A DNA stretch of 38,417 nt from Anaerostipes butyraticus. Lineage in GTDB: Bacteria > Bacillota > Clostridia > Lachnospirales > Lachnospiraceae. The stretch covers positions 1 to 38,417 of the forward strand of contig NZ_BLYI01000069.1 of NCBI RefSeq assembly GCF_016586355.1, read 5' to 3'. The stretch's first letter is position 1, and each line of letters opens with the position of its first letter. Below the pieces are notes generated by a model, which worked only from the letters and a program-made list of their open reading frames with translations, did not search any database and was not told the origin of the DNA. The translations under genes and the position numbers were made by a program. This document shows positions 9,074-19,173 of this stretch, piece by piece.

Positions 9074-9103
9074 GGAATTGATACGAGGGTAATGTCCCCA
9101 TTA

Positions 9104-9172
9104 AATAGTGACATTAAATCATGACATCATTCAATGGTGACATCAGCAAATGTCACTATTTGATGGTGACAT
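9104..9172. promoter_or_regulatory. Repeated GTGACAT operator array between mtlA and the PRD regulator
   Basis: GTGACAT occurs at 9109-9115, 9137-9143 and 9166-9172 (28- and 29-bp steps). A variant ATGACAT lies at 9121-9127 and an inverted copy ATGTCAC at 9150-9156. TGTCAC (9151-9156) and GTGACA (9166-9171) form an inverted repeat with a 9-bp centre. All copies lie just upstream of the mtlA -35, the usual place for an activator. MtlR-type regulators bind related GTG-CAA/TTG-CAC half sites, so this is probably where the neighbouring PRD regulator binds; that assignment is inference. Confidence 0.6.
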
Positions 9173-9254
9173 TTATACGGATGTTCTGTTTTTGCAATGA
9201 ATTATTTTGCACTAATTGTATCAATATCAGTACAAAATCCGATTTTATGACATA

Positions 9255-9284
9255 TGTACAAATGTAACAATCAATCGTTATAAT
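9255..9284 (+). promoter_or_regulatory. Promoter of the PRD regulator gene
   Basis: TGTACA (9255-9260), an 18-bp spacer and TATAAT (9279-9284), about 60 bp before the start codon. Similar GTACAAA words lie around the -35. Confidence 0.65.
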
Positions 9285-9347: not shown

Positions 9348-11303
9348 ATGAATAACCTGCAAGAAAAAGTAATTCGCGCAATGGTGGATATGTATGGATT
9401 TTATTCCATAGAAGAACTTTCAGAGATGACAAACATATCGGTCAGCAGCATCAAGCATTCTCTGGGGGATATTGCAGAACAGATCGAAGAATACGGAGCC
9501 AGACTGCTTCGTGTCCCAAGAAAAGGAATCTGCATGGTGGCGTCGGATAAAGAAAGGGAAAAAATTGTAGAAGAACTGGATTCTTATGCAAACAGCAATC
9601 CGGAATCTTTCGTTTATCGAAAAAATTACATTCTGGACATTCTGTTTAATTTCCCGGCAAATTATACGATCGGATTGTTTTCAGAAGAATTATGTGTCAG
9701 CAGACAAGTGATTCAAAAAGATTTAAATGAGATAAAGGAATATCTGAAACAGTTTCACTTAAAACTGATAAAACGAAGAAACCGTGGGATTGAAATCCTG
9801 GGTCATGAATTCGATTTTCGTCAGGCACTGATTGATATAAGAAATGCAAAATACTGGAAACACGCCTACATTGAAGATCTTCCAGCGAAACTTGATTATC
9901 GGATCAGCAAGAGAGCGTATACATTTTTTTCACAATATTATTCAAAAAACGACATTATGATGGTGCAGGAATATCTGGCGCAGAGTGAAAAAAAGCTTGG
10001 TATCATTTTAATTGATATTTCTTTCTGCCGACTGACAGAATATCTGCTGATGTCTAAAAGCAGGATTGAGGAAGGGAAAAAAATTACCAATACTGCGGAC
10101 CGTAAAATGACAGAACTGGAGAAATCTTATCTCGAAGCCGCAAAAGGGATCCTGGATAAAATGTTTCCGATGGAGACAGAAATGGATCTGGAATACAGAT
10201 TTCTGGCAGCCAAATTGTTTGTTGCCAAGACCTGTGATCCGGCGGGAAAGGTGCAGGATGAAAAGCTGATGGATTTAGCGGAAGATTATATCTTTATTGT
10301 CCTGAAGGCCATACAGAAAGAAAACGCCATTCGCCTGAGGGAACTGGAAAAACAAATTGCTGTTTTTTTACAAACAATAAAAATCAAACGGGATTATATG
10401 CTGGCAGAATGGGACGATCTCCATAAAGATGTCCAGCAGCAGCTTCACAGTATTTATGCGGTATGTCTTGCATATGCGGCAAGGCTGGAAGAAGAACTGG
10501 GATTTGTATTGACGCAGGATGAGATTGCATGGATCACACTGCTGATTCATCAGACAGCAGTCATAAGTTACGGCAGCAGGCAGGGTATTTTTGTTACAGC
10601 CACAGATCCGTATACAACAGCATATGACGCAATGAAAATTGAAAATGAAATTGATAATCTGGAAATTGTAAAAATGCTTCATATTTATCAATATGATCCT
10701 GACAGGGCAAAAGGGAAGATTGTAATATCAACGGTGCCCCTGAAACAGAAACGGGAAAATGAAATTGAAATTACAAAGCATGTCAGTCCGATGGATCTGA
10801 ATAAGATCAGAAATTGCATTGATAAATATGAGAAACAGAGACAAAACCAGAAAGTCATAGACACCATACGTCATACCTTTCAAAAAGAACTGATCATGAC
10901 AGATGTGTCAGTTAATACAAAGAAAGAGGCGATACAGGAAGCCAGCAGACTGCTGATGGAGCAGGGATGTCTGGAACAGGATGTAACAGGAAAAGTTTAT
11001 GATCTGGAAGAAAAACGTCCGACAACAATAGGAAGCCAGATTGCCATGGTTCATATTTACAAGGAAAGTGTAAAGAAAAGCGGCATAGCGATTCTTAGAA
11101 TGAAGTATCCTGTCCGATGGTCAGAAAATTCCAAAGTGAAACTTGTGTTCTTTCTCGCCATCAATTATGAGCAGTCCAATGAAATTCTGATGCTGTTTAA
11201 ATTTCTGTACAGCCTGATTGACCATAAAGATATGATCAACAAAATGATTGAAGCAAAAGATCCTGAAACGATTTATGATTTCCTGATGAAGGAAATTGGA
11301 TGA
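9348..11303 (+). CDS. PRD-domain transcription regulator (MtlR/BglG type)
   Basis: A 651-aa PTS-controlled regulator. Two N-terminal helix-turn-helix segments (YSIEELSEMTNISVSSIKH and FSEELCVSRQVIQKDLNEI) precede two PRDs (about 190-400), an EIIB-like segment and a C-terminal EIIA domain (about 505-651). PRD2 keeps a His in ITLLIHQTA and the EIIA keeps one in AMVHIYKES. The EIIB-like region reads GIFVTATDPYT where a phospho-Cys would be expected, so that site seems lost. The start is ATG 9348, 6 bases after GAGGAGG; an in-frame TTG at 9333 lies before this site and is unlikely. It diverges from mtlA and lies 43 bp before the aldolase gene, so it could control either or both units. Confidence 0.9.
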   Translation: MNNLQEKVIRAMVDMYGFYSIEELSEMTNISVSSIKHSLGDIAEQIEEYGARLLRVPRKGICMVASDKEREKIVEELDSYANSNPESFVYRKNYILDILFNFPANYTIGLFSEELCVSRQVIQKDLNEIKEYLKQFHLKLIKRRNRGIEILGHEFDFRQALIDIRNAKYWKHAYIEDLPAKLDYRISKRAYTFFSQYYSKNDIMMVQEYLAQSEKKLGIILIDISFCRLTEYLLMSKSRIEEGKKITNTADRKMTELEKSYLEAAKGILDKMFPMETEMDLEYRFLAAKLFVAKTCDPAGKVQDEKLMDLAEDYIFIVLKAIQKENAIRLRELEKQIAVFLQTIKIKRDYMLAEWDDLHKDVQQQLHSIYAVCLAYAARLEEELGFVLTQDEIAWITLLIHQTAVISYGSRQGIFVTATDPYTTAYDAMKIENEIDNLEIVKMLHIYQYDPDRAKGKIVISTVPLKQKRENEIEITKHVSPMDLNKIRNCIDKYEKQRQNQKVIDTIRHTFQKELIMTDVSVNTKKEAIQEASRLLMEQGCLEQDVTGKVYDLEEKRPTTIGSQIAMVHIYKESVKKSGIAILRMKYPVRWSENSKVKLVFFLAINYEQSNEILMLFKFLYSLIDHKDMINKMIEAKDPETIYDFLMKEIG

Positions 11304-11346
11304 CGCAGCGTAATGAATACGACAAATAATTTAGGAGGGAAAAGAA

Positions 11347-12231
11347 ATGCTGGTAAATTTGAAAAAAATCTTGGAAACTGCAGAATCAGAAGGATATGCG
11401 ATCCCATGTATTAACACACCAAACGAAGAAACAGTCCGTGCAGTGATTGGAGCGGCAGAGGAACTGAACACACCAATTATCATTGACCATGCACAGGTGC
11501 ATGATTCTCTGATTCCAATCGAGAGAATCGGACCGGTTATGCTGAAATATGCAAGAGAAGCAAGAGTTCCGGTATGCGTTCATCTGGATCATGGCAGTGA
11601 TTATGAATTCCTTATGCGAGCTGTAAAAATCGGATTCCCATCTATTATGTATGACTGCAGCGCGCTTCCTTTTGAGGAAAATGTCGAAAAAGTGAAAAAG
11701 TTCGTACAGTTTGCTCATGCTGCAGGAATCACGGTAGAAGCAGAACTCGGGGTTATGGCATCTACAGCAGAGGATACCCATGGAGAGGAAGACCCGGAAA
11801 GCAGAGTCCTTACAAATGAAGACATCAAAGAGTTCTTTACAAAACCGGATGAAGCTAAAAAGTTTGCGGAAGAGACCGGATGCGATGCACTGGCTGTATG
11901 TTTCGGAACCATGCATGGAATTTACGCAGAACCTCCGGTACTGGATATTGACAGAGTAAAAGCTCTTCGAAAAGAAATTCCGGACAGCTGCCGTATTGTA
12001 ATGCATGGAGCTTCCGGAGTCGCATTTGATCAAGTGCAGACAGCGATTTCTGCCGGATGCTCAAAAATCAATTATTATTCGTATATGGCAAAGGCGGCAA
12101 CAAAGTTTGTGGCGGATAAAGTAGAAGAGACCAAAGGAACGATCGCATACCATGAATTACAGGAAGCGGCCTATGAGTTTATGAAAGATTATGCAAAAGA
12201 TGTTATTTCAGCATTTAGGAATGGAAAATAA
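11347..12231 (+). CDS. Class II (zinc) fructose/tagatose-bisphosphate-type aldolase
   Basis: A 294-aa cytoplasmic aldolase of the FbaA/GatY/KbaY superfamily, which makes DHAP plus an aldehyde from a ketose phosphate. Visible active-site elements are VHLDHG with Asp81 and zinc ligand His82, EAELG (Glu131/133), GTMHGIY (His190) and VMHGASG (His220). Overall length matches the family. Because it sits with a fructose-type PTS rather than in glycolysis, its substrate is more likely a ketose-1-phosphate or ketose-1,6-bisphosphate specific to this operon than FBP. The ribosome site AGGAGGG lies eight bases upstream. It begins the enzyme part of the operon, 43 bp after the regulator gene. Confidence 0.92.
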   Translation: MLVNLKKILETAESEGYAIPCINTPNEETVRAVIGAAEELNTPIIIDHAQVHDSLIPIERIGPVMLKYAREARVPVCVHLDHGSDYEFLMRAVKIGFPSIMYDCSALPFEENVEKVKKFVQFAHAAGITVEAELGVMASTAEDTHGEEDPESRVLTNEDIKEFFTKPDEAKKFAEETGCDALAVCFGTMHGIYAEPPVLDIDRVKALRKEIPDSCRIVMHGASGVAFDQVQTAISAGCSKINYYSYMAKAATKFVADKVEETKGTIAYHELQEAAYEFMKDYAKDVISAFRNGK

Positions 12232-12253
12232 AACAGGATAAAGGAGGCATTTC

Positions 12254-12724
12254 ATGGGAGATGTAAATTTAGCGGAAGTGCTGCTCCCGGAAATGGTAAT
12301 CCTTGATTGTGAGCCTTTTAAAGATAAGGAAGATATGTTTGATACAATGACCCGCAGATTTGAAGAGGCAGGTTTTGTATCAGATGCAAAAGCCTATAAA
12401 GAAGCGTTAGAGTACAGAGAAAGCCTGGGACCTACATATATGGGAAATTATGTTGCAATTCCTCATGGAAAATGCAGTGAAGTCCTGAAACCGGGCGTTG
12501 GATTTGTAAGATGCAGAAAACCTTTTATTTATGAGTCAGCCGGAGAATCCGGCGAGGTAAAATTCATCTTTGTACTGGCAATATCTGACAATCAAGATAA
12601 TAATTACCATTTAAGAGTGCTGGCAGCACTGGCAGGAATGCTGGCGCATGATCAGTTTCTTGAACTTCTGGGAAAGGCGGAAAATTATGAGGAACTGATC
12701 CGGGGAATCAAAGAATTATCTTAG
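12254..12724 (+). CDS. PTS EIIA component, mannitol/fructose type
   Basis: A 156-aa cytoplasmic phosphocarrier that takes phosphate from HPr and passes it to EIIB. The phospho-His is His71 in NYVAIPHGK, the hallmark of PTS_EIIA_2. Single-domain and full length. It precedes the separate EIIB and EIIC genes in the same operon, so the three form one permease; it might also serve the orphan EIICB at 30212. AAGGAGG is correctly placed before ATG 12254. Confidence 0.93.
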   Translation: MGDVNLAEVLLPEMVILDCEPFKDKEDMFDTMTRRFEEAGFVSDAKAYKEALEYRESLGPTYMGNYVAIPHGKCSEVLKPGVGFVRCRKPFIYESAGESGEVKFIFVLAISDNQDNNYHLRVLAALAGMLAHDQFLELLGKAENYEELIRGIKELS

Positions 12725-12762
12725 GAATCCGGAAATATACAGAAAGCAGGGAGGTGAAATCC

Positions 12763-13062
12763 ATGAAGGTAATTGCAATTACATCATGTGCTACAGGAAT
12801 TGCGCATACCTATATGGCAGCAGAGGCGATTATGAAAATCTGCAAAGAAAAAGGATACGACTGTAAGGTTGAAAAACAAGGTGCGCTTGGGATTGAAGAC
12901 AAGCTGAGAAGCAGGGATATTAAGGAAGCTGACCTGATCGTCTTTGCAAACGATGTAGGAATCACAAAGGCTGAAAGATTTAAAGGGTACGAGGACAAGA
13001 TCCTTCATACAAAACCGCACGAGGTAATCAAGAACCCTGAGATTATTTTTCAGGGAAAATAG
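12763..13062 (+). CDS. PTS EIIB component, fructose type
   Basis: A 99-aa phosphocarrier with phospho-Cys9 in TSCATGIAHTYMAAEAI, the signature of fructose-family EIIB. I start at ATG 12763, seven bases after GGGAGGTG; the in-frame GTG at 12754 is part of that ribosome site. It receives phosphate from the EIIA just upstream and phosphorylates the sugar bound by the EIIC just downstream. Confidence 0.94.
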   Translation: MKVIAITSCATGIAHTYMAAEAIMKICKEKGYDCKVEKQGALGIEDKLRSRDIKEADLIVFANDVGITKAERFKGYEDKILHTKPHEVIKNPEIIFQGK

Positions 13063-13114
13063 CAAATTCAAAAAAGAGGAAAACAGAAAATATTTATGAA
13101 AGGATGGGTAACAA

Positions 13115-14149
13115 ATGAGAGATGTGATTGATGATATCAAAGAAGCGTTTTTGACCGGTGTATCCTATATGCTGCCATTTGTCGTAGCTGGAGGAATTCT
13201 GGTAGCTCTGGGATTTTTGCTGGGCGGATATAATATTCCAAATGAAGTAGACCCTGGAACGACATTTGCATCTACGATCTTCTGGATTGGGGAAATCGGT
13301 CTGGATAATCTGATGGTTCCTGTGCTGGGAGCTTATGTAGCATATTCCATCGCCGATAAACCAGGAATCTGCGTCGGAATGTTCGGCGGATGGATTGCAA
13401 ATGACCCCTGGGGGATCGGATATAAGTCAGGATTTCTTGGAGCCCTGGTAGCAGGAATCATAGCAGGCTATCTGGTAAATCTGCTGAAAAAGATTCCACT
13501 TCCTAATTCATTGAAATCCCTGCTTCCGACCCTGCTGGTACCGGTCATCGGATGTGCAGGCATCGGTCTGATCATGCATTATGTGATTGGAACACCTCTG
13601 GGAGCTCTGACACAGGCTCTGACGAATATGTTAAATAACCTGGGGACAGGAAATCTGGTACTCCTGGGTATTATACAAGGATGTATGCTTGCCTTTGATA
13701 TGGGAGGACCGTGCAATAAAGTTGCCTATGCGTTTGCCCTGGCCTGTATGGAAACCGGAAACTATGCGCCTATGGCTGCGAACTTTGTGGCAAGCTGTGC
13801 GCCGCCGCTGGCTCTGGCTCTGGCAATGCTGGCCGCGCCGAAAAAATTTACCAAAGAAGACAGAGCCAATATACCGGGATTTTTTGCAGGAGCTCTTTGC
13901 ATGATCACAGAATTTGCGATCCCTTATGCAGCAAAGAATCTGAAATATATCCCATGTTTCATGGCAGGTTCTGCAGTGGGAGCAGTCATTTCCTATTTGT
14001 GGGGAATTACGATCCGGGCACCGCATGGAGGAGTGTTTGTTGTCTTTGCGATGAACAAGGTGCTTCCATTCTTTGTAACCCTGCTGATTGCGGGAGTTGT
14101 ATCTGCGGCTCTTATTGTTCTTGTGACAAAGGCGCCTGAAAAAGAATAA
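13115..14149 (+). CDS. PTS EIIC component, fructose type
   Basis: A 344-aa integral membrane permease subunit with eight or more hydrophobic segments. It contains DMGGPCNKVAYAFA, the fructose-family motif (usually GGPMNKAA), and IRAPHGGVFV near the C-terminus. It forms the channel of the EIIABC complex encoded by 12254-14149. Fructose-family EIIs phosphorylate at C1 or C6 depending on subgroup, so neither sugar nor phosphate position can be read from sequence. AAAGGATGG lies before the start. Confidence 0.93.
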   Translation: MRDVIDDIKEAFLTGVSYMLPFVVAGGILVALGFLLGGYNIPNEVDPGTTFASTIFWIGEIGLDNLMVPVLGAYVAYSIADKPGICVGMFGGWIANDPWGIGYKSGFLGALVAGIIAGYLVNLLKKIPLPNSLKSLLPTLLVPVIGCAGIGLIMHYVIGTPLGALTQALTNMLNNLGTGNLVLLGIIQGCMLAFDMGGPCNKVAYAFALACMETGNYAPMAANFVASCAPPLALALAMLAAPKKFTKEDRANIPGFFAGALCMITEFAIPYAAKNLKYIPCFMAGSAVGAVISYLWGITIRAPHGGVFVVFAMNKVLPFFVTLLIAGVVSAALIVLVTKAPEKE

Positions 14150-14199
14150 CTGAAAGACAGCTGGGATTTTACCAGCAGATAAAAGACAGGAGAGAAAAA

Positions 14200-15114
14200 A
14201 TGGCAAAATTAATGGAAATTATGGGACATTTCCCTTTTGAACCAGATGAAAAAAAACCGATGCTGATCCGGAAACAGGATTATTCTACTGCTTTATATCC
14301 GCCGGATAACGCATTTACATCGGACAATACATTTACAATGATTACGACAGATACGTTTATGCTTGGAATTTATGAATTAGGACCGGGAGGTGTGTTTGCG
14401 CCGCTTGATATCCATCCAGGGGATGAGTCGTATTATATCCTAAACGGACCGGTTGTACAAAGAAGCGGCAATGGACAGTTTGCATATCTGGAAACGGGAG
14501 AAGGACTGTTTATGCCGGAAGGAGCATGGCACTGCTGCCATAATTTCTCAGATCAGAAAGCAAGAATTTTATATTTTATCACTCCAAAGGCATGGAGTGA
14601 ATCTATTCCGCCGGCGGTGATTCCAACAGAGGAAGAGACAAAGTTCTACAAAGGACCGAACAATGACAATCTTCCGGACATGAGAGGCGCCATTAAAGAT
14701 ATTTCAAGACAGGGGTGTACTGATGATATCGGACACTGGCCGGTGGATGCGAAAGAAGCAAGAGAGACCGGAGCTGTTTATGCGGTGCGTGATTTCGAAA
14801 AGCTGAATAATGTGCATGGAACTACACATCCAATGCTGATGCGTTTTATTACGAGCAATGATTATGGACATTTTGGAGAGATGATCGTGCCGGCAGGCGG
14901 ATATGGGCCGAGATGTTCGGATCCGGACAGTCACAAGGGAGACGGAGCATTATATTGTGTTGACGGACCGGTAACCGTGAATCTAACGGACGCTCAGGAA
15001 AGTTTTGTAATGGAACCGGAAGATACATTCTTCCTTCCTGCGGGAACAAAATATCAGCTGGTCAATTTTGAAAATAAACCAGTGAAAGTAGTCTTTGCGA
15101 TTACAGAGCTGTAA
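14200..15114 (+). CDS. Bicupin protein, possible sugar isomerase or mutase
   Basis: A 304-aa protein with two cupin barrels. Barrel 1 (about 60-130) has IHPGDESYYILNG and PEGAWHCCHN, matching the two cupin motifs with metal-binding His and Glu. Barrel 2 (about 215-300) has SHKGDGALYCVDG and PAGTKYQLVN and appears to lack part of the metal set. Bicupins of this type occur in sugar operons and some cupins isomerise sugars (for example lyxose isomerase), but I do not recognise a characterised member. Its place between PTS and phosphosugar enzymes suggests action on the imported sugar phosphate. The ribosome site AGGAGAG is 7 bases upstream. Confidence 0.8.
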   Translation: MAKLMEIMGHFPFEPDEKKPMLIRKQDYSTALYPPDNAFTSDNTFTMITTDTFMLGIYELGPGGVFAPLDIHPGDESYYILNGPVVQRSGNGQFAYLETGEGLFMPEGAWHCCHNFSDQKARILYFITPKAWSESIPPAVIPTEEETKFYKGPNNDNLPDMRGAIKDISRQGCTDDIGHWPVDAKEARETGAVYAVRDFEKLNNVHGTTHPMLMRFITSNDYGHFGEMIVPAGGYGPRCSDPDSHKGDGALYCVDGPVTVNLTDAQESFVMEPEDTFFLPAGTKYQLVNFENKPVKVVFAITEL

Positions 15115-15122
15115 AGAAGAAA

Positions 15123-15146
15123 CGGCAGGGTCAGAAGGCCCTGCCG
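15123..15146 (+). other. Hairpin between bicupin and HAD genes
   Basis: CGGCAGGG (15123-15130) pairs with CCCTGCCG (15139-15146) with an 8-nt loop and no T run. It may stabilise or pause the operon mRNA. A TATAAT at 15174-15179 lies downstream without a convincing -35. Confidence 0.5.
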
Positions 15147-15225
15147 GGACTATGCGAAGGGCATCAGATAAGATATAATAAAAAGACAGATGCCCAAGGA
15201 TAAGCAAACGGAAAGGAAGACTATT

Positions 15226-15879
15226 ATGAAGAAGTACAAAGGAATTATTTTTGATCTGGATGGAACGCTGTTAAATACGGTATATGATCTGGCAGACAGT
15301 GTAAACGAGGTTCTGACACACATGGGATTTCCATGTCACGATGAAGAGGAATATAAGCTGAAGATCGGACATGGTTTTCGCAACCTGATTGAAGTAAGCC
15401 TTCCGGAAGACCAGAGAACGGAAGAAAATATTGAAAAAGGACTAGATATGTTCGTGAAGGCATATGATCAAAAATACAAGAACAGGACGGTGCCTTATAA
15501 TGGGATTCCTGAACTAATGGAACAGCTGCATGACAGGCATATTTGTTTTGCGGTTAACTCAAACAAAAGGATGGACTACACAAATGCTTTAGTGGACAAG
15601 TTTTTCTCCCATCTTCCATTTACCGCGGTTTTTGGAGAAAGAGAAGGTGTGCCGAAAAAACCGGATCCGGCTTCTGCGCTGGAAATTGCAGGAATGATGG
15701 GACTGAAACCGGAAGAAATCCTGTATATTGGAGACTCCAGTACTGATATGGCAACGGGGAAAAATGCAGGAATGGATACGGTTGGAGTTGCCTGGGGATT
15801 TCGAGGCAGGGAAGAACTGGAAGCCAGTGGGGGCACATACATTGTAGATCGTCCGGAAGAGATACTAGATATCATCTGA
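15226..15879 (+). CDS. HAD-superfamily phosphatase (phosphoglycolate phosphatase-like)
   Basis: A 217-aa hydrolase that removes phosphate from a small phosphorylated metabolite. HAD motifs are I FDLDGTLLNT, II VNSNK, III KKPDP and IV YIGDSSTDM. A helical cap (about 16-80) marks subfamily IA, like Gph and PgmB. I start at ATG 15226; the in-frame ATG at 15190 lacks a ribosome site and family similarity begins at KKYKGIIFDLDG. In this operon it may recycle a dead-end sugar phosphate or release phosphate from a pathway intermediate; a beta-phosphoglucomutase-like mutase is a less likely alternative. Confidence 0.88.
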   Translation: MKKYKGIIFDLDGTLLNTVYDLADSVNEVLTHMGFPCHDEEEYKLKIGHGFRNLIEVSLPEDQRTEENIEKGLDMFVKAYDQKYKNRTVPYNGIPELMEQLHDRHICFAVNSNKRMDYTNALVDKFFSHLPFTAVFGEREGVPKKPDPASALEIAGMMGLKPEEILYIGDSSTDMATGKNAGMDTVGVAWGFRGREELEASGGTYIVDRPEEILDII

Positions 15880-15969
15880 TTCAGAAGAAGTCTTTTGGAA
15901 CAAAGATGGAAGACTGGGATTTATAAAAATCTGCTTTGATTCTGGATCAGGATTCAGAAGGAGAAGCGT

Positions 15970-16446
15970 ATGAAATTATCATTGGGATGTGACGAAGCGG
16001 CATATGATCTGAAAGAAAAATTAAAACAGCATCTTCTGGAAGAAGGACATGAGGTAATAGATAACGGCGTAGGGCAGGGGGAGACAGCCCTCTATCCGGA
16101 TATTGCCGTAAAAACCTGTAAAAAGGTGACGGACGGCACCTGTGACCGGGGAATTCTTGTGTGCGGTACAGGAATCGGAATGGCAATGACAGCCAATAAA
16201 GTACCGGGAATCCGGGCAGCTGTATGTCATGATCCGTATTCAGCGGAAAGATCAATTCTGAGCAATAACGGAAATGTAATGTGCATGGGAGCAAGGGTGA
16301 TCGCGCCACAGCTTGCTTTATATCTTCTGGATATCTGGATGGGACTGGAATTTAAAGACAGTCCGTCCACGGAAAAAGTAGAACGCATGACATATTATGA
16401 AAATCAGTTTTGTGGGAAACAGGAGGTGCCGGAACATGAAATTTAA
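15970..16446 (+). CDS. RpiB/LacA/LacB-family sugar-phosphate isomerase
   Basis: A 158-aa aldose-ketose phosphate isomerase. Family elements are LGCDEAAYDLK, catalytic Cys65 in VCGTGIGM, CHDPYSAERS (His87) and NNGNVMCMGARVI. The usual Asp-His pair near the N-terminus is Asp8-Glu9 here, a change in the phosphate- or ring-binding position. That suggests a substrate other than ribose-5-phosphate; relatives act on galactose-6-P, allose-6-P and erythrose-4-P. It overlaps the next gene by 11 bp, so the two products are made together. AGAAGGAG precedes the start. Confidence 0.88.
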   Translation: MKLSLGCDEAAYDLKEKLKQHLLEEGHEVIDNGVGQGETALYPDIAVKTCKKVTDGTCDRGILVCGTGIGMAMTANKVPGIRAAVCHDPYSAERSILSNNGNVMCMGARVIAPQLALYLLDIWMGLEFKDSPSTEKVERMTYYENQFCGKQEVPEHEI

Positions 16447-17293
16447 ATTTGGAGTGGATACATTCATCTGGTCGGAGAACTATGGAAAGGATGATCTCTG
16501 GATCATTCCGAAGGCAAAAGAACTGGGATTTGAGGTGATCGACTTTGCGATTTCCGATCCATATGGGTTCCCTGTCAAAGAAGTAAAAGACGAACTGGAC
16601 AGGGTGGGGATTGACTGTGTATGTACCACCACCCTGACGGAAGAAACCAATCCGATTTCTCCGGATCCGGATATCCGAAAAGCGGCGGTGAGGGCAGTGA
16701 AAAAATGCATTGATATCTGCAATGAACTGGGAGCGCCGATTTTAGGCGGTGTAAATTATGCGGCATGGGGATATCTTACGAAAAAGCCGAGGACTCAGGA
16801 AGAGTGGAAGCATGGCGTTGAGTGCATGAGGGAATCTGCAGAGTATGCAAAAGCAACAGGAAATGTAAATATCTGTGTGGAATGTGTGAACCGCTTTGAA
16901 ACCCACTTTTTGAATATTGCGGAAGACGCAGTACAATTCTGCAGGGATGTCGGAACAGATAATATGAAGGTCCACCTGGATTGTTTTCATATGATACGGG
17001 AAGAAAAAAGCTTTTCCGGAGCAGTGAAAACCTGTGGGAAAAAATATCTGGGATATGTTCATGTCAATGAAAATGACAGAGGGATTCCGGGAACCGGTCT
17101 GGTTCCATTTCGGGAATTTTTTACGGCATTAAAGGAAATCGGGTACGATGGTCCTCTGGTCATTGAATCTTTTGACCCAAGTTTTGAAGAATTAAGCGGG
17201 AACTGCGCAATCTGGAGAAAATTTGCGGATACAGGGGAAGAACTGGCGGTAGAAGGACTGAAGAATCTGAAGGCAATTGCAGAAACTGTATAG
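16436..17293 (+). CDS. Ketose 3-epimerase-like TIM-barrel protein
   Basis: A 285-aa member of the D-tagatose 3-epimerase/D-psicose (allulose) 3-epimerase group of xylose-isomerase-like TIM barrels. The four metal ligands line up with those of known epimerases: Glu149 (ICVECVNRFE), Asp182 (HLDCFH), His209 (GYVHVNEND) and Glu244 (VIESFD). His185 and Arg215 match the substrate O-binding residues. I start at ATG 16436, eight bases after AGGAGG; the longer frame from 16397 is inside rpiB-like coding sequence. Expected reaction: C3 epimerisation of a ketose or ketose phosphate. Overlap with the isomerase gene and a 12-bp gap to dhaK show tight coupling. Confidence 0.9.
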   Translation: MKFKFGVDTFIWSENYGKDDLWIIPKAKELGFEVIDFAISDPYGFPVKEVKDELDRVGIDCVCTTTLTEETNPISPDPDIRKAAVRAVKKCIDICNELGAPILGGVNYAAWGYLTKKPRTQEEWKHGVECMRESAEYAKATGNVNICVECVNRFETHFLNIAEDAVQFCRDVGTDNMKVHLDCFHMIREEKSFSGAVKTCGKKYLGYVHVNENDRGIPGTGLVPFREFFTALKEIGYDGPLVIESFDPSFEELSGNCAIWRKFADTGEELAVEGLKNLKAIAETV

Positions 17294-17305
17294 GAGGAAC
17301 CGCTT

Positions 17306-18304
17306 ATGAATCGTATTGTAAATGATCCAAATTATGTTGTGGAAGATATGCTCAAAGGTTTTGTAAAAAACCATAAAGATCTGGTGGAAAAAACAGAAAA
17401 TGACAGAGTTTTAAAGTATAAGAAGGCGCCGGTGGAAGGAAAAGTAGGGATCGTAACGGGCGGCGGTTCCGGGCATAAGCCGGCTTTTATCGGATACATA
17501 GGAGAAAATTTGTGTGATGCAGTGGCAGTAGGGGAAATTTTTTCTTCTCCGACGGCAAAAGCATTCCTGGATGCTATCAAGGCAGCAGATTCCGGAAAAG
17601 GAGTTGCGTGTCTGTATGGAAATTATGCGGGAGATAATATGAATGTAAAGATGGCAGTCCGCAAGGCAAAAAAACTGGGGATTGAAGTAAAAACCGTAGT
17701 AGCAAATGATGACTGCGCCTCAGCTCCAAAAGATGAATTGGAAAAACGCAGAGGAGTGGCAGGGGAAGTTCTTATGTGGAAAGTCGGCGGAGCGAAAGCG
17801 GCTATGGGGGCAGATCTGGATGAAGTCATTGCCGCAGCACAGAAAGCCATCGATTATACCAGGTCCGTGGGAATCGGGACAGCACCCTGCACGATTCCAG
17901 CTGTGGGACATCCTAATTTTCAGATTGAAGACGGAATGATGGAAGTAGGCATTGGCCATCATGGGGAACCGGGAATCAATGTACAGCCGTTAAAGACAGC
18001 CAGGGAAATTGCAGATGAAATGCTGGATCTGATTCTTCCGGATCTACCTTTTGAAGCAGGAGATGAAGTTGTTGTTTTACTGTCCGGTCTGGGCGCGACA
18101 CCGGTTATGGAACAGTATATTGTATATGACCGGGTAGAAGAAGTCCTGGAGGAAAAAGGAATCAGCGTTTACCGGTCTTATGTGGGCAATTACTTCACAT
18201 CTCTGGAAATGATGGGAGTAACTCTGACGGTCATGAAACTGGATGAAGAATTAAAAGAATGTATGGATCTGCCGGTGAATTCTGCAGGCCTGAAACAGTT
18301 TTAG
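17306..18304 (+). CDS. dhaK: Dihydroxyacetone kinase subunit DhaK (or tetrulose kinase relative)
   Basis: A 332-aa substrate-binding subunit. It has GGGSGHKPAF (His57), YAGDNMN (Asp110, general base position) and IGHHGEPG, whose second His (219) corresponds to the His that forms a hemiaminal with the ketone carbonyl. It works with DhaL (18451), which carries the nucleotide. No DhaM is present, so the phosphate source (PTS via a distant DhaM, or ATP) is open. Relatives phosphorylate dihydroxyacetone, D-glyceraldehyde or erythrulose, all possible products of this pathway. GGAGGAACC precedes the start, 12 bp after the epimerase gene. Confidence 0.9.
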   Translation: MNRIVNDPNYVVEDMLKGFVKNHKDLVEKTENDRVLKYKKAPVEGKVGIVTGGGSGHKPAFIGYIGENLCDAVAVGEIFSSPTAKAFLDAIKAADSGKGVACLYGNYAGDNMNVKMAVRKAKKLGIEVKTVVANDDCASAPKDELEKRRGVAGEVLMWKVGGAKAAMGADLDEVIAAAQKAIDYTRSVGIGTAPCTIPAVGHPNFQIEDGMMEVGIGHHGEPGINVQPLKTAREIADEMLDLILPDLPFEAGDEVVVLLSGLGATPVMEQYIVYDRVEEVLEEKGISVYRSYVGNYFTSLEMMGVTLTVMKLDEELKECMDLPVNSAGLKQF

Positions 18305-18329
18305 GCAAAGACTGGGGCAAAGTGAAATG

Positions 18330-18349
18330 TGGCACAATTCTTTGTGCCA
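18330..18349 (+). terminator. Hairpin after dhaK (weak or attenuating)
   Basis: TGGCACAA (18330-18337) pairs with TTGTGCCA (18342-18349) around a 4-nt loop. The T run after it is poor, so partial read-through into dhaL is likely. Confidence 0.5.
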
Positions 18350-18368
18350 TATTTGTACTTAAATCTGA

Positions 18369-18397
18369 TTGGGATTCAAAAACTGCTGTGATAAAAT
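18369..18397 (+). promoter_or_regulatory. Candidate promoter for dhaL
   Basis: TTGGGA (18369-18374), 17-bp spacer, TAAAAT (18392-18397), 53 bp before the dhaL start. It would let dhaL be expressed apart from dhaK. Confidence 0.55.
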
Positions 18398-18450
18398 AAG
18401 ATTAGATCAAGAGAAAAAACAAATAATCGAAATAGTACGAGGTGAAGAAG

Positions 18451-19089
18451 ATGGAAAGTTTCAAGAATGCAGATGCAGGCGTGATCGTAGAACAGCTGAT
18501 CCGGACAATCCAGGAACAGAGAGATTACTTAAGTGAGATTGATGGAAAAATTGGTGACGGAGATCATGGGATCAACATGAACAAAGGATTTACCATGTGT
18601 GAAGAAAAACTGAAGGGACAGACCTATAATCTGTCAGAAGGGCTGTCAATTCTTGGAGAAACCCTGCTGGATGACATTGGAGGTTCCATGGGACCTCTTT
18701 ACGGCATGCTGTTTGATGAGATGTCTATGGCATGTGAAGATGCGGAAGAGATCAATGCCGATGTTTTCGGTGAGATGATCACCGGAGCAGTGGAAGGAAT
18801 CCAGGAAATCAGTCCTGCAAAGGTAGGAGATAAGTCTCTTCTTGACACGCTGGTTCCGGCCAAAGAGGCTTTTGTACAGGCCAAAGAAGAAGGAAAAGGG
18901 TTTGGAGAATGTCTGGACGCAATGAATGAAGCGGCTGAAAAAGGATGGCAGTCTACGAAAGATCTGGTTGCCAGGATCGGAAGAGCAAGCCGTCTGGGAG
19001 AGCGTTCCAGAGGAGTTCTGGATGCAGGAGCCACCAGCTGCTATTTTATCATCACAACGATTGGAAAAGGGGCAAAGAGTCTTTTATAA
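18451..19089 (+). CDS. dhaL: Dihydroxyacetone kinase subunit DhaL
   Basis: A 212-aa nucleotide-binding subunit. IDGKIGDGDHG holds the three Asp residues that bind two Mg ions and ADP, and GGSMGPLYGML is the phosphate-binding loop. Length matches E. coli DhaL (about 210). I start at ATG 18451 with GAGGTGAAG upstream; the in-frame GTG at 18442 is inside that ribosome site. It partners DhaK but is separated from it by 146 bp that hold a hairpin and a possible promoter, unusual for subunits needed in equal amounts. A strong terminator follows. Confidence 0.92.
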   Translation: MESFKNADAGVIVEQLIRTIQEQRDYLSEIDGKIGDGDHGINMNKGFTMCEEKLKGQTYNLSEGLSILGETLLDDIGGSMGPLYGMLFDEMSMACEDAEEINADVFGEMITGAVEGIQEISPAKVGDKSLLDTLVPAKEAFVQAKEEGKGFGECLDAMNEAAEKGWQSTKDLVARIGRASRLGERSRGVLDAGATSCYFIITTIGKGAKSLL

Positions 19090-19141
19090 AAACCATGCAG
19101 TACGGGCGTCCGCCCTCATATATCATACAATTCAAAAAAAG

Positions 19142-19173
19142 ACATCAGAAAAGGATTCTGATGTTCTTTTTTT
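19142..19173 (+). terminator. Terminator of dhaL and of the ketose operon
   Basis: ACATCAGAA and TTCTGATGT form a 9-bp stem with a short loop, followed by seven or more T. Confidence 0.88.

Follow-up and report, generated by a model that had tools for sequence, protein, structure and literature searches.

The catabolism of D-threitol, L-threitol and erythritol in Mycobacterium smegmatis, of which DthD and DerK are part, was reportedly described by Huang in 2015. The tetritol enzymes LerK, LerI, DerI and EltD of this organism are treated in the available part of PMC10733421, where a single kinase (LerK) yields both L-erythrulose 1-phosphate and D-erythrulose 4-phosphate, LerI converts the former to the latter, and DerI yields D-erythrose 4-phosphate. 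In the EryA–EryI erythritol pathway the matching steps are run by EryH, a TpiA-type protein, and EryI, an RpiB, and a dihydroxyacetone kinase is said to phosphorylate L-erythrulose (PMC5992420, in the text accessible). Here these systems are compared with an operon at nucleotides 9348–19089 of an Anaerostipes butyraticus contig (NZ_BLYI01000069.1; the whole stretch of 38,417 nucleotides is referred to as the window). Its eleven genes specify a PRD-type regulator, a class II aldolase, the EIIA, EIIB and EIIC proteins of a fructose-type phosphotransferase system (PTS), a bicupin, a HAD phosphatase, an RpiB-family isomerase, a ketose 3-epimerase, DhaK and DhaL.

The reading favoured here, tentatively and with a confidence just short of even, is that the operon imports a ketose of more than six carbons, for which a heptulose is the likeliest identity, and splits it into dihydroxyacetone phosphate (DHAP) and a tetrose. 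As in the tetritol pathways of M. smegmatis, an erythrulose kinase and an erythrulose-phosphate isomerase would then give erythrose 4-phosphate; the difference is that the erythrulose of the operon would come from the aldolase and the bicupin after uptake by the PTS. None of the eleven genes specifies a tetritol dehydrogenase and the RpiB falls below the cut-off of the DerI model (138.3 against 240; the model is named for rhizobia), so the operon is not classed in the DerK–DerI module. A scan of named genomes yielded 38 bicupin loci in Bacillota and Actinomycetota, from 50 pattern-matching stretches. The EryA–EryI pathway (PMC5992420, available part; rhizobial locus L063) has a related RpiB in common with the operon and a TpiA-like partner in common with five of these loci; unlike it, the operon has neither EryA nor EryB, and its epimerase is not EryC. 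With the D-psicose and D-tagatose 3-epimerases the operon epimerase has the fold family and seven active-site residues in common, but its score is under their cut-off. The back half of the operon would work like the tetrulose end of the tetritol pathways, the DhaK clade and its neighbours being common to both. Nothing in the open-licence literature was recognised as describing the gene combination or a heptulose PTS, which is weak as an absence. In the first-pass annotation of this DNA no described pathway with the full gene set was known.

The aldolase and the PTS

The aldolase scores above the cut-off of the broad cbbA subfamily (221.2 against 215.6) and below the equivalog cut-offs for fructose-bisphosphate aldolase (FBA) and tagatose-bisphosphate aldolase (TBPA). 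Its nearest relatives are the fructose and tagatose bisphosphate aldolases and YdjI. In fructose- and tagatose-bisphosphate aldolases an arginine holds the second phosphate. This residue is replaced in all 36 rows of the aldolase alignment (alanine in 29, glycine in 5, serine in 2), while D47, H48, A49 and H52 are invariant; three of the 39 hits had been removed for coverage below 90%, namely two second, distant aldolases and one copy cut by a contig end. YdjI of Escherichia coli, the second-best PDB match of the operon aldolase, likewise has no second-phosphate arginine in the alignment. According to the accessible portion of PMC11194214, it works on a ketose 1-phosphate, its product being given as octuluronate 1-phosphate, and it differs from the operon aldolase in this substrate.

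A DHAP-forming aldolase acting on a ketose 1-phosphate made by the PTS would leave a free aldehyde, which would account for a second, ATP-using kinase in the operon. The joint presence of a PTS and a separate ATP kinase is understandable where cleavage of the PTS product gives one phosphorylated and one free piece. No match to TIGR02364 (DhaM) was found in the genome, the control search being positive in 3 of 14 genomes (E. coli, Lactococcus, Haloferax); the operon lacks the DhaM that marks a PTS-dependent dihydroxyacetone kinase (DhaKLM).

Gene content and exchange of modules

Over the 38 bicupin loci the aldolase was found 36 times, EIIC 33 times, and RpiB (of either kind) and DhaL of the window's type 24 times each. 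The exceptions for the aldolase are L037, where a DhnA-type aldolase gene (134.1 bits, below the cut-off of 241) directly precedes the bicupin gene, and L045, a 5.8-kb contig. A HAD of the window's type is present in 13 loci and a different one (Cof type) in four, so that this protein would be a variable, optional accessory, perhaps a clean-up phosphatase.

In a DhaK tree of 56 rows one clade, called a here (SH-aLRT 99), takes in all 26 primary DhaKs of epimerase loci (24 together with the window and L137), and a separate one (SH-aLRT 100) all seven DhaKs from the DhaK-b loci. No M. smegmatis sequence was among the rows, hence DerK is not placed. Where a bicupin locus has both the epimerase and a DhaK, the latter belongs to clade a (24 of 24); L022 and L039 possess a second, different DhaK as well, and in L021 and L041 the epimerase is present but the stretch ends before any DhaK is found. 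The seven loci with clade-b DhaK are all without the epimerase. Five of them have a TpiA-like gene in the locus and two (L034 and L052) have neither; in the genomes of these two the TpiA-like gene lies elsewhere (85% and 84% identity), as the model predicted. The genomes of the five bicupin loci without a DhaK gave only an ordinary TpiA (31–40%) or, in one case, no match.

On the bicupin tree (37 rows, L034 and L052 being placed in the TpiA-like group for the label count) the module label needs at least three changes across well-supported branches, which suggests repeated exchange of the modules. The epimerase with DhaK-a, and the TpiA-like enzyme with DhaK-b, would do the same job downstream of the aldolase and the bicupin. 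Beside the aldolase, which is almost constant, other parts of the bicupin neighbourhoods are swapped as units; a neighbourhood comparison of the bicupin across Lachnospiraceae had been proposed in the first-pass annotation.

Nine of the 38 loci carry PtsI and HPr among the cluster genes (L022, L023, L024, L025, L034, L040, L051, L052 and L055), an arrangement that would suit a dedicated phosphate relay; the pair in L022 was confirmed. A conserved 400-amino-acid protein heads the ABC-type bicupin operons of L047 (484–1701) and L049 (1742–2947), and for the L047 copy nothing in Pfam or NCBIfam reached the thresholds applied.

DhaK and the TpiA-like protein

The 38 rows of DhaK clade a comprise 26 from epimerase loci, five beside a zinc alcohol dehydrogenase (four with RpiB), three beside a DthD-type short-chain dehydrogenase (one with RpiB), one FucI-type and three others. 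Without a bicupin, clade-a DhaK adjoins RpiB, DhaL, an ABC importer and a zinc dehydrogenase in L134, L135 and L136. It accompanies RpiB and a zinc dehydrogenase in L133, where the DhaK was recognised from DNA-level matches, and a zinc dehydrogenase in L104, where RpiB is not among the called open reading frames (ORFs). In L103 it is found with RpiB and, as a further likeness to the M. smegmatis pathways, a GolD/DthD-family dehydrogenase (350.1 bits, cut-off 286). L105 has a dehydrogenase of this family (354.3 bits, same cut-off) with no RpiB among its called ORFs; L112 has one that looks like it, and again no RpiB called. The epimerase is absent from the called ORFs of these dehydrogenase stretches. 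A fucose-isomerase-family gene lies ahead of the clade-a DhaK in L102.

Two further clade-a DhaKs were observed in the genome of the window. In the region L131 6247–10236 one of them lies among a 3-hexulose-6-phosphate synthase gene (252.6 bits, cut-off 200), HxlB-like genes (by eye) and a gene of the mannitol dehydrogenase family; in the region L132 3245–10420 the other is accompanied by PTS-like genes (by eye), an Aldolase_II gene and a further DhaKL.

The TpiA-like genes group together in a separate clade (SH-aLRT 99) that leaves out the ordinary TpiAs. The window's genome has one ordinary TpiA, 41% identical to the TpiA-like protein of L023. Turning the Fischer formula makes D-3-tetrulose 4-phosphate the same compound as L-erythrulose 1-phosphate under another name.

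The epimerase and RpiB

The nearest solved relatives of the epimerase are the D-psicose and D-tagatose 3-epimerases, and its score lies under the psicose-epimerase cut-off (Table 1). Seven residues associated with metal and O1–O3 binding (E149, E155, D182, H185, H209, R215 and E244) are identical in all 27 rows, of which 26 come from the bicupin loci and the window and one from pRL12; the cut copy of L021 was dropped. Equivalences were drawn through an alignment and PMC8167858, the available part of which describes, for the Methylomonas enzyme, four metal ligands and the residues that hold O1 and O2 of a free ketose. The invariance of the O1-binding residues points to a substrate with an unphosphorylated C1. 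A close copy of the epimerase (81%) occurs in only one other of 295 genomes of the order, inside a bicupin cluster.

Identification of this protein as EryC was rejected, the evidence being a single 69-residue match (E-value=2e-5). The notion that it is an erythrulose-1-phosphate isomerase swapped one for one with the TpiA-like enzyme was also dropped, since the O1-binding Glu, His and Arg imply a free C1 and the DhaK clade changes along with it. The RpiB is 40% identical to that of pRL12, and the genome has a second RpiB (38%).

The bicupin

No NCBIfam model was matched near its cut-off by the bicupin. In its first cupin domain D70, H72, E76 and H111 are invariant in 29 rows. The predicted fold is generic (pLDDT 76), and the fold search, which returned quercetinase, oxalate decarboxylase, DUF861-type and BacB-type bicupins, is not discriminating and supports no particular reaction. 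Searching PDB with a profile of the bicupin alignment gave one weak match (E-value=1.6e-4). Judged from its gene neighbours the protein may be an aldose–ketose isomerase, a role that several contexts fit: the AraB/AraD surroundings of its rhizobial relatives, the fucose-isomerase-family gene of L102, and the isomerase that the parallel cluster of L138 has in place of a called bicupin. The M20 peptidase next to the rhizobial genes and the xylulokinase gene of L047 speak against it.

Plasmid records gave 24 bicupin matches, of which 11 are rhizobial (40–44%) and in two pieces, two genes where annotated. In the two rhizobial 25-kb stretches that were read, the split-cupin pair has as neighbours a ribose-type ABC importer, AraD and the ribulokinase AraB; AraA is not in their gene tables, which are incomplete. 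The surroundings of the split pair on rhizobial plasmids also include M20 peptidases (L057, 10489–18939; L058, 10489–18936, both with the importer and AraB/AraD). A split pair in Lachnospiraceae (L017, 8390–12249) is accompanied by an M20 peptidase, a ribose-type ABC importer and a short-chain dehydrogenase, with no AraB/AraD seen by eye.

Proposed pathway and alternatives

Gene content and conservation, the swapping of modules and the absence of the second-phosphate arginine are read from sequence; the substrate and all enzymatic steps are inferred, as follows. EIIABC would import the heptulose as its ketose 1-phosphate, and the class II aldolase would cut this to DHAP and an unphosphorylated aldotetrose; it is the sum of tetrose and DHAP that suggests a heptulose. 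The bicupin would isomerise the tetrose to erythrulose, the 3-epimerase would convert L-erythrulose to D-erythrulose, DhaKL would phosphorylate the latter at C4 with ATP, and RpiB would convert D-erythrulose 4-phosphate to erythrose 4-phosphate. The DHAP would join glycolysis, and transketolase and transaldolase, whose genes are present in the genome, would offer an outlet for erythrose 4-phosphate; in L028 two transketolase-half genes adjoin the cluster. The PRD protein would be a PTS-controlled regulator and the HAD protein an optional clean-up phosphatase. On the simplest reading the epimerase would be needed because the bicupin delivers L-erythrulose; DhaK-b and the TpiA-like enzyme would handle this compound directly, and the epimerase would make D-erythrulose for DhaK-a. 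The L-series in the bicupin and epimerase steps is the least certain part of the scheme and is, taken by itself, doubtful.

One candidate sugar is L-galacto-heptulose (perseulose), which would be degraded to DHAP and L-threose and, by way of the bicupin isomerase, to erythrose 4-phosphate; we regard this choice of substrate as distinctly unlikely. Perseulose would yield, by our derivation, an L-threose with the C3/C4 configuration used by fructose-type aldolases. It is the ketose partner, as derived from configuration, of L-glycero-D-manno-heptose, the heptose of the Gram-negative lipopolysaccharide core, and arises when perseitol, a polyol of avocado, is oxidised.

The heptuloses best known from plants give D-erythrose and would need no epimerase, which weighs against the scheme; sedoheptulose and mannoheptulose would, on our derivation, both do so. 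With such a D-series heptulose, the aldolase would give DHAP and D-erythrose, the epimerase-family protein would isomerise the latter to D-erythrulose, and the bicupin would be an anomerase or a ring-opening helper of the aldolase. A member of the epimerase superfamily, TM0416, makes D-erythrulose from D-erythrose as well as from D-threose (PMC8167858, available part), which brings tetroses within the reach of the superfamily, and the operon epimerase could itself be the tetrose isomerase. The metalloprotein YhcH is reported to supply the open substrate form to sialic-acid aldolase (PMC8141875, available part), and the bicupin accompanies an aldolase in nearly every locus. In addition, the TpiA-like protein of L023 exceeds the cut-offs for ordinary triose-phosphate isomerase (TPI; 295.6 against 293 and 143.5 against 130.6), so that it does not necessarily point to L-erythrulose. 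The TpiA-like loci without an epimerase (5 of 38), however, would be left without a recognised tetrose isomerase, and we consider this route unlikely.

Two of the three readings offered by the first-pass annotation involve ketohexoses. A route through allulose, sorbose or fructose 1-phosphate to DHAP and glyceraldehyde, with DhaKL as triokinase, would be in keeping with the fructose-type PTS, the aldolase, DhaKL and the psicose-epimerase relative, all of which the operon contains, and the TpiA-like gene of five loci, with the L023 copy above the TPI cut-offs, would suit it. Such a route gives no role to RpiB or to the tetritol-type contexts of DhaK clade a, and the epimerase retains a site for a free C1, whereas the PTS product would be phosphorylated there. 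The allose/allulose-like version is further disfavoured by the low score of the epimerase and by the exchange of epimerase plus DhaK-a for DhaK-b plus TpiA-like enzyme, for which no role is seen; in the fructose 1-phosphate version the epimerase, like RpiB, is left unexplained. We regard ketohexoses as improbable substrates and find neither version supported. The third reading, a tetrulose route, has support for the back half of the operon (DhaKL, RpiB and epimerase, with clade-a DhaK found in tetritol-type operons) but does not explain the PTS, the aldolase and the bicupin. The bicupin had been thought to fit none of these routes neatly, as had the phosphatase; an isomerase role would now place the former, and the latter stays an accessory. 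An octulose or another C8 sugar would give DHAP and an aldopentose, to be handled by the bicupin as pentose isomerase and by a ketopentose kinase. The gene following the bicupin in L047 belongs to the xylulokinase equivalog (473.4, cut-off 380.25) and would fit a pentulose, and the rhizobial relatives are grouped with ribulokinase and AraD. A DhaK-type kinase with RpiB is, by contrast, the layout of C4 and not C5 pathways, and this alternative is very unlikely.

Several further observations weigh, as do TM0416, the L023 scores and the xylulokinase gene, against the heptulose scheme. The TpiA-like gene is the weak point in the argument for L-erythrulose, its contrast to ordinary TpiA being weaker than first assumed, and it could be a plain TPI. 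Three copies are 38–44% identical to the TpiA-type protein of the erythritol locus of Rhizobium pRL12, against 28–41% for ordinary TpiAs, and the clade joins the pRL12 TpiB at a support of 84 with long branches. The RpiB scores as an ordinary RpiB, and RpiB was not found in 14 of the 38 stretches, some of them cut by contig ends. Dehydrogenases of the GolD/DthD family are not restricted to threitol, and the zinc dehydrogenases of L134 and L135 exceeded no model at its cut-off. The epimerase and DhaK are both absent from the fetched stretches of L036, L037, L046, L047 and L049 (a weak minus-strand DhaK-b match in L047 was discounted by hand), and a DhaK search of nine bicupin-locus genomes gave no match in L036 and L046, which are metagenome-assembled genomes and may be incomplete. 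The genomes of L034, L052 and L047 have clade-a DhaKs (72–74%) away from the bicupin, so that the two clades are not genome-exclusive. Since LerK makes both products in the available part of PMC10733421, a difference in kinase clade does not have to mean a difference in substrate. The scheme does not account for the M20 peptidase adjoining the rhizobial split-cupin genes.

If the heptulose scheme is right, it provides the catabolic logic of one ketose split into a triose and a tetrose, the tetrose being rescued by a tetritol-type kinase and isomerases, and gives a candidate function to a conserved bicupin of Lachnospiraceae, Erysipelotrichaceae and Coriobacteriia-type genomes. It would also advise caution with annotations given by default, namely psicose epimerase, RpiB, dihydroxyacetone kinase and FBP aldolase, which would suggest an allulose or glycerol pathway. 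Were perseulose the substrate, this would be a C7 to C3 plus C4 catabolism of Gram-positive gut bacteria, not found described in the literature searched, and a bicupin family would gain a function as tetrose isomerase.

Organization of the operon

ORF analysis together with Pfam and NCBIfam profile scans confirmed all the families named in the first-pass annotation; as stated there, the eleven genes are co-directional with short gaps or overlaps. All lie on the + strand; RpiB and the epimerase overlap by 17 bases, and the widest gap, of 137 bases, separates DhaK from DhaL. The operon is real. Its completeness, which had been claimed, could be judged only with a substrate in hand, and the HAD gene is a variable part.

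Table 1. Features of the operon and its flanks in the window, with the supporting matches
Feature	Position	Strand	Evidence or remark
Operator-like block, TGACAT/ATGTCA repeats	9091..9173	.	between divergent mtlA and the PRD gene; could serve either
Promoter-like site ahead of the PRD regulator	9255-9284		
PRD-type transcriptional regulator, Mga/HTH_11 + PRD + C-terminal EIIA domains	9348..11303	+	Pfam PTS_EIIA_2 99.9 bits, Mga 43.5, PRD 23.0 (cut-off 23)
Class II DHAP-type aldolase, proposed ketose-1-phosphate aldolase	11347..12231	+	F_bP_aldolase 267 bits
PTS EIIA, fructose type	12254..12724	+	PTS_EIIA_2 114.8 bits; TIGR00848 96.9, slightly below 103.5
PTS EIIB, fructose type, GTG start	12754..13062	+	TIGR00829 90.7 bits, above cut-off 76.85
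PTS EIIC, fructose type	13115..14149	+	TIGR01427 296.6 bits, above cut-off 157.55
Bicupin, proposed aldose-ketose isomerase acting on the aldehyde product of the aldolase	14200..15114	+	Cupin_2, 2 stretches
HAD phosphatase, phosphoglycolate-phosphatase-like, optional accessory	15190..15879	+	PRK13222 149.6 bits against cut-off 225
RpiB-family isomerase, proposed D-erythrulose-4-P to D-erythrose-4-P	15970..16446	+	TIGR01120 rpiB 144.6, above 138.65
AP_endonuc_2 ketose 3-epimerase, D-tagatose/D-psicose 3-epimerase family, proposed erythrulose 3-epimerase	16430..17293	+	NF051856 182.8 bits, below 300
DhaK clade a, proposed D-erythrulose 4-kinase subunit	17306..18304	+	Dak1 384.9 bits; tree
DhaL, proposed ATP-using partner	18442..19089	+	TIGR02365 177.7, above 138.3
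Terminator-like hairpin after DhaL	19141..19165	both strands	10-pair stem + T run

The operator-like block contains a 41-nt inverted repeat (80% complementary) and a direct-repeat family of four copies; its dense repeats are likely operator sites for mtlA or the PRD gene. In the gap between DhaK and DhaL lies a hairpin or palindrome (18330–18349), with a promoter-like site also within 18330–18397, on which account separate expression of DhaL might occur. Upstream are the divergent mtlA and mtlD, and downstream, from 19576, CTP synthase. MtlA and MtlD were rejected as members of the pathway, since MtlD and the whole of MtlA exceed the mannitol cut-offs, and are neighbours only.

Distribution of the cluster

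The same eleven genes occur in the same order in L019 (in a record of 'Candidatus Anaerostipes avistercoris'), L020 and L029, and shuffled sets in other families and in Actinomycetota, which argues against a chance arrangement. The bicupin was found at 91–96% identity in eight of the ten other genomes of the genus searched. At the family level one of 26 other genomes matched, with a distant split pair (38% and 30%), and at the order level there were five weak matches (27–29%). Class-wide, two of 291 drawn genomes had the bicupin at an E-value of 1e-15, the window's own genome being one, and the cluster is therefore rare and patchy. The 38 loci come from Lachnospiraceae, Erysipelotrichaceae, Propionispora, Pectinatus, Alkalibaculum, Oceanobacillus, Coriobacteriia-type genomes and others, and the gene set may have spread by transfer. 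Among viral contigs 61 stretches fitted a bicupin pattern and none encoded a relative.

A frameshifted copy of the bicupin (L056, 9465–10375) was observed in an actinobacterial bin contig with a gene order like that of L053. This copy, which was not mended, and L041, cut by a contig end, were excluded from both the bicupin alignment and the tree; L020, L023–L027, L052 and L055 were excluded from the alignment and kept in the tree.

A parallel cluster is present in genomes G485 and G049 (L138 and L139). It resembles the operon in having a PTS, an epimerase relative (34% and 33%), DhaKL, an aldolase (30% and 34%), a HAD and a PRD-like gene, and differs in its GAT-type EIIC, a GH42 gene and a Fucose_iso_C-type isomerase, with no bicupin or RpiB among the called ORFs; protein families were scanned in L138 only. 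The Fucose_iso_C protein of L138 is sulfoquinovose-isomerase-like (267 bits, cut-off 700). Both clusters (L138, 1055–14881; L139, 63–13744) carry their own PtsI, and an HPr was called in L139.

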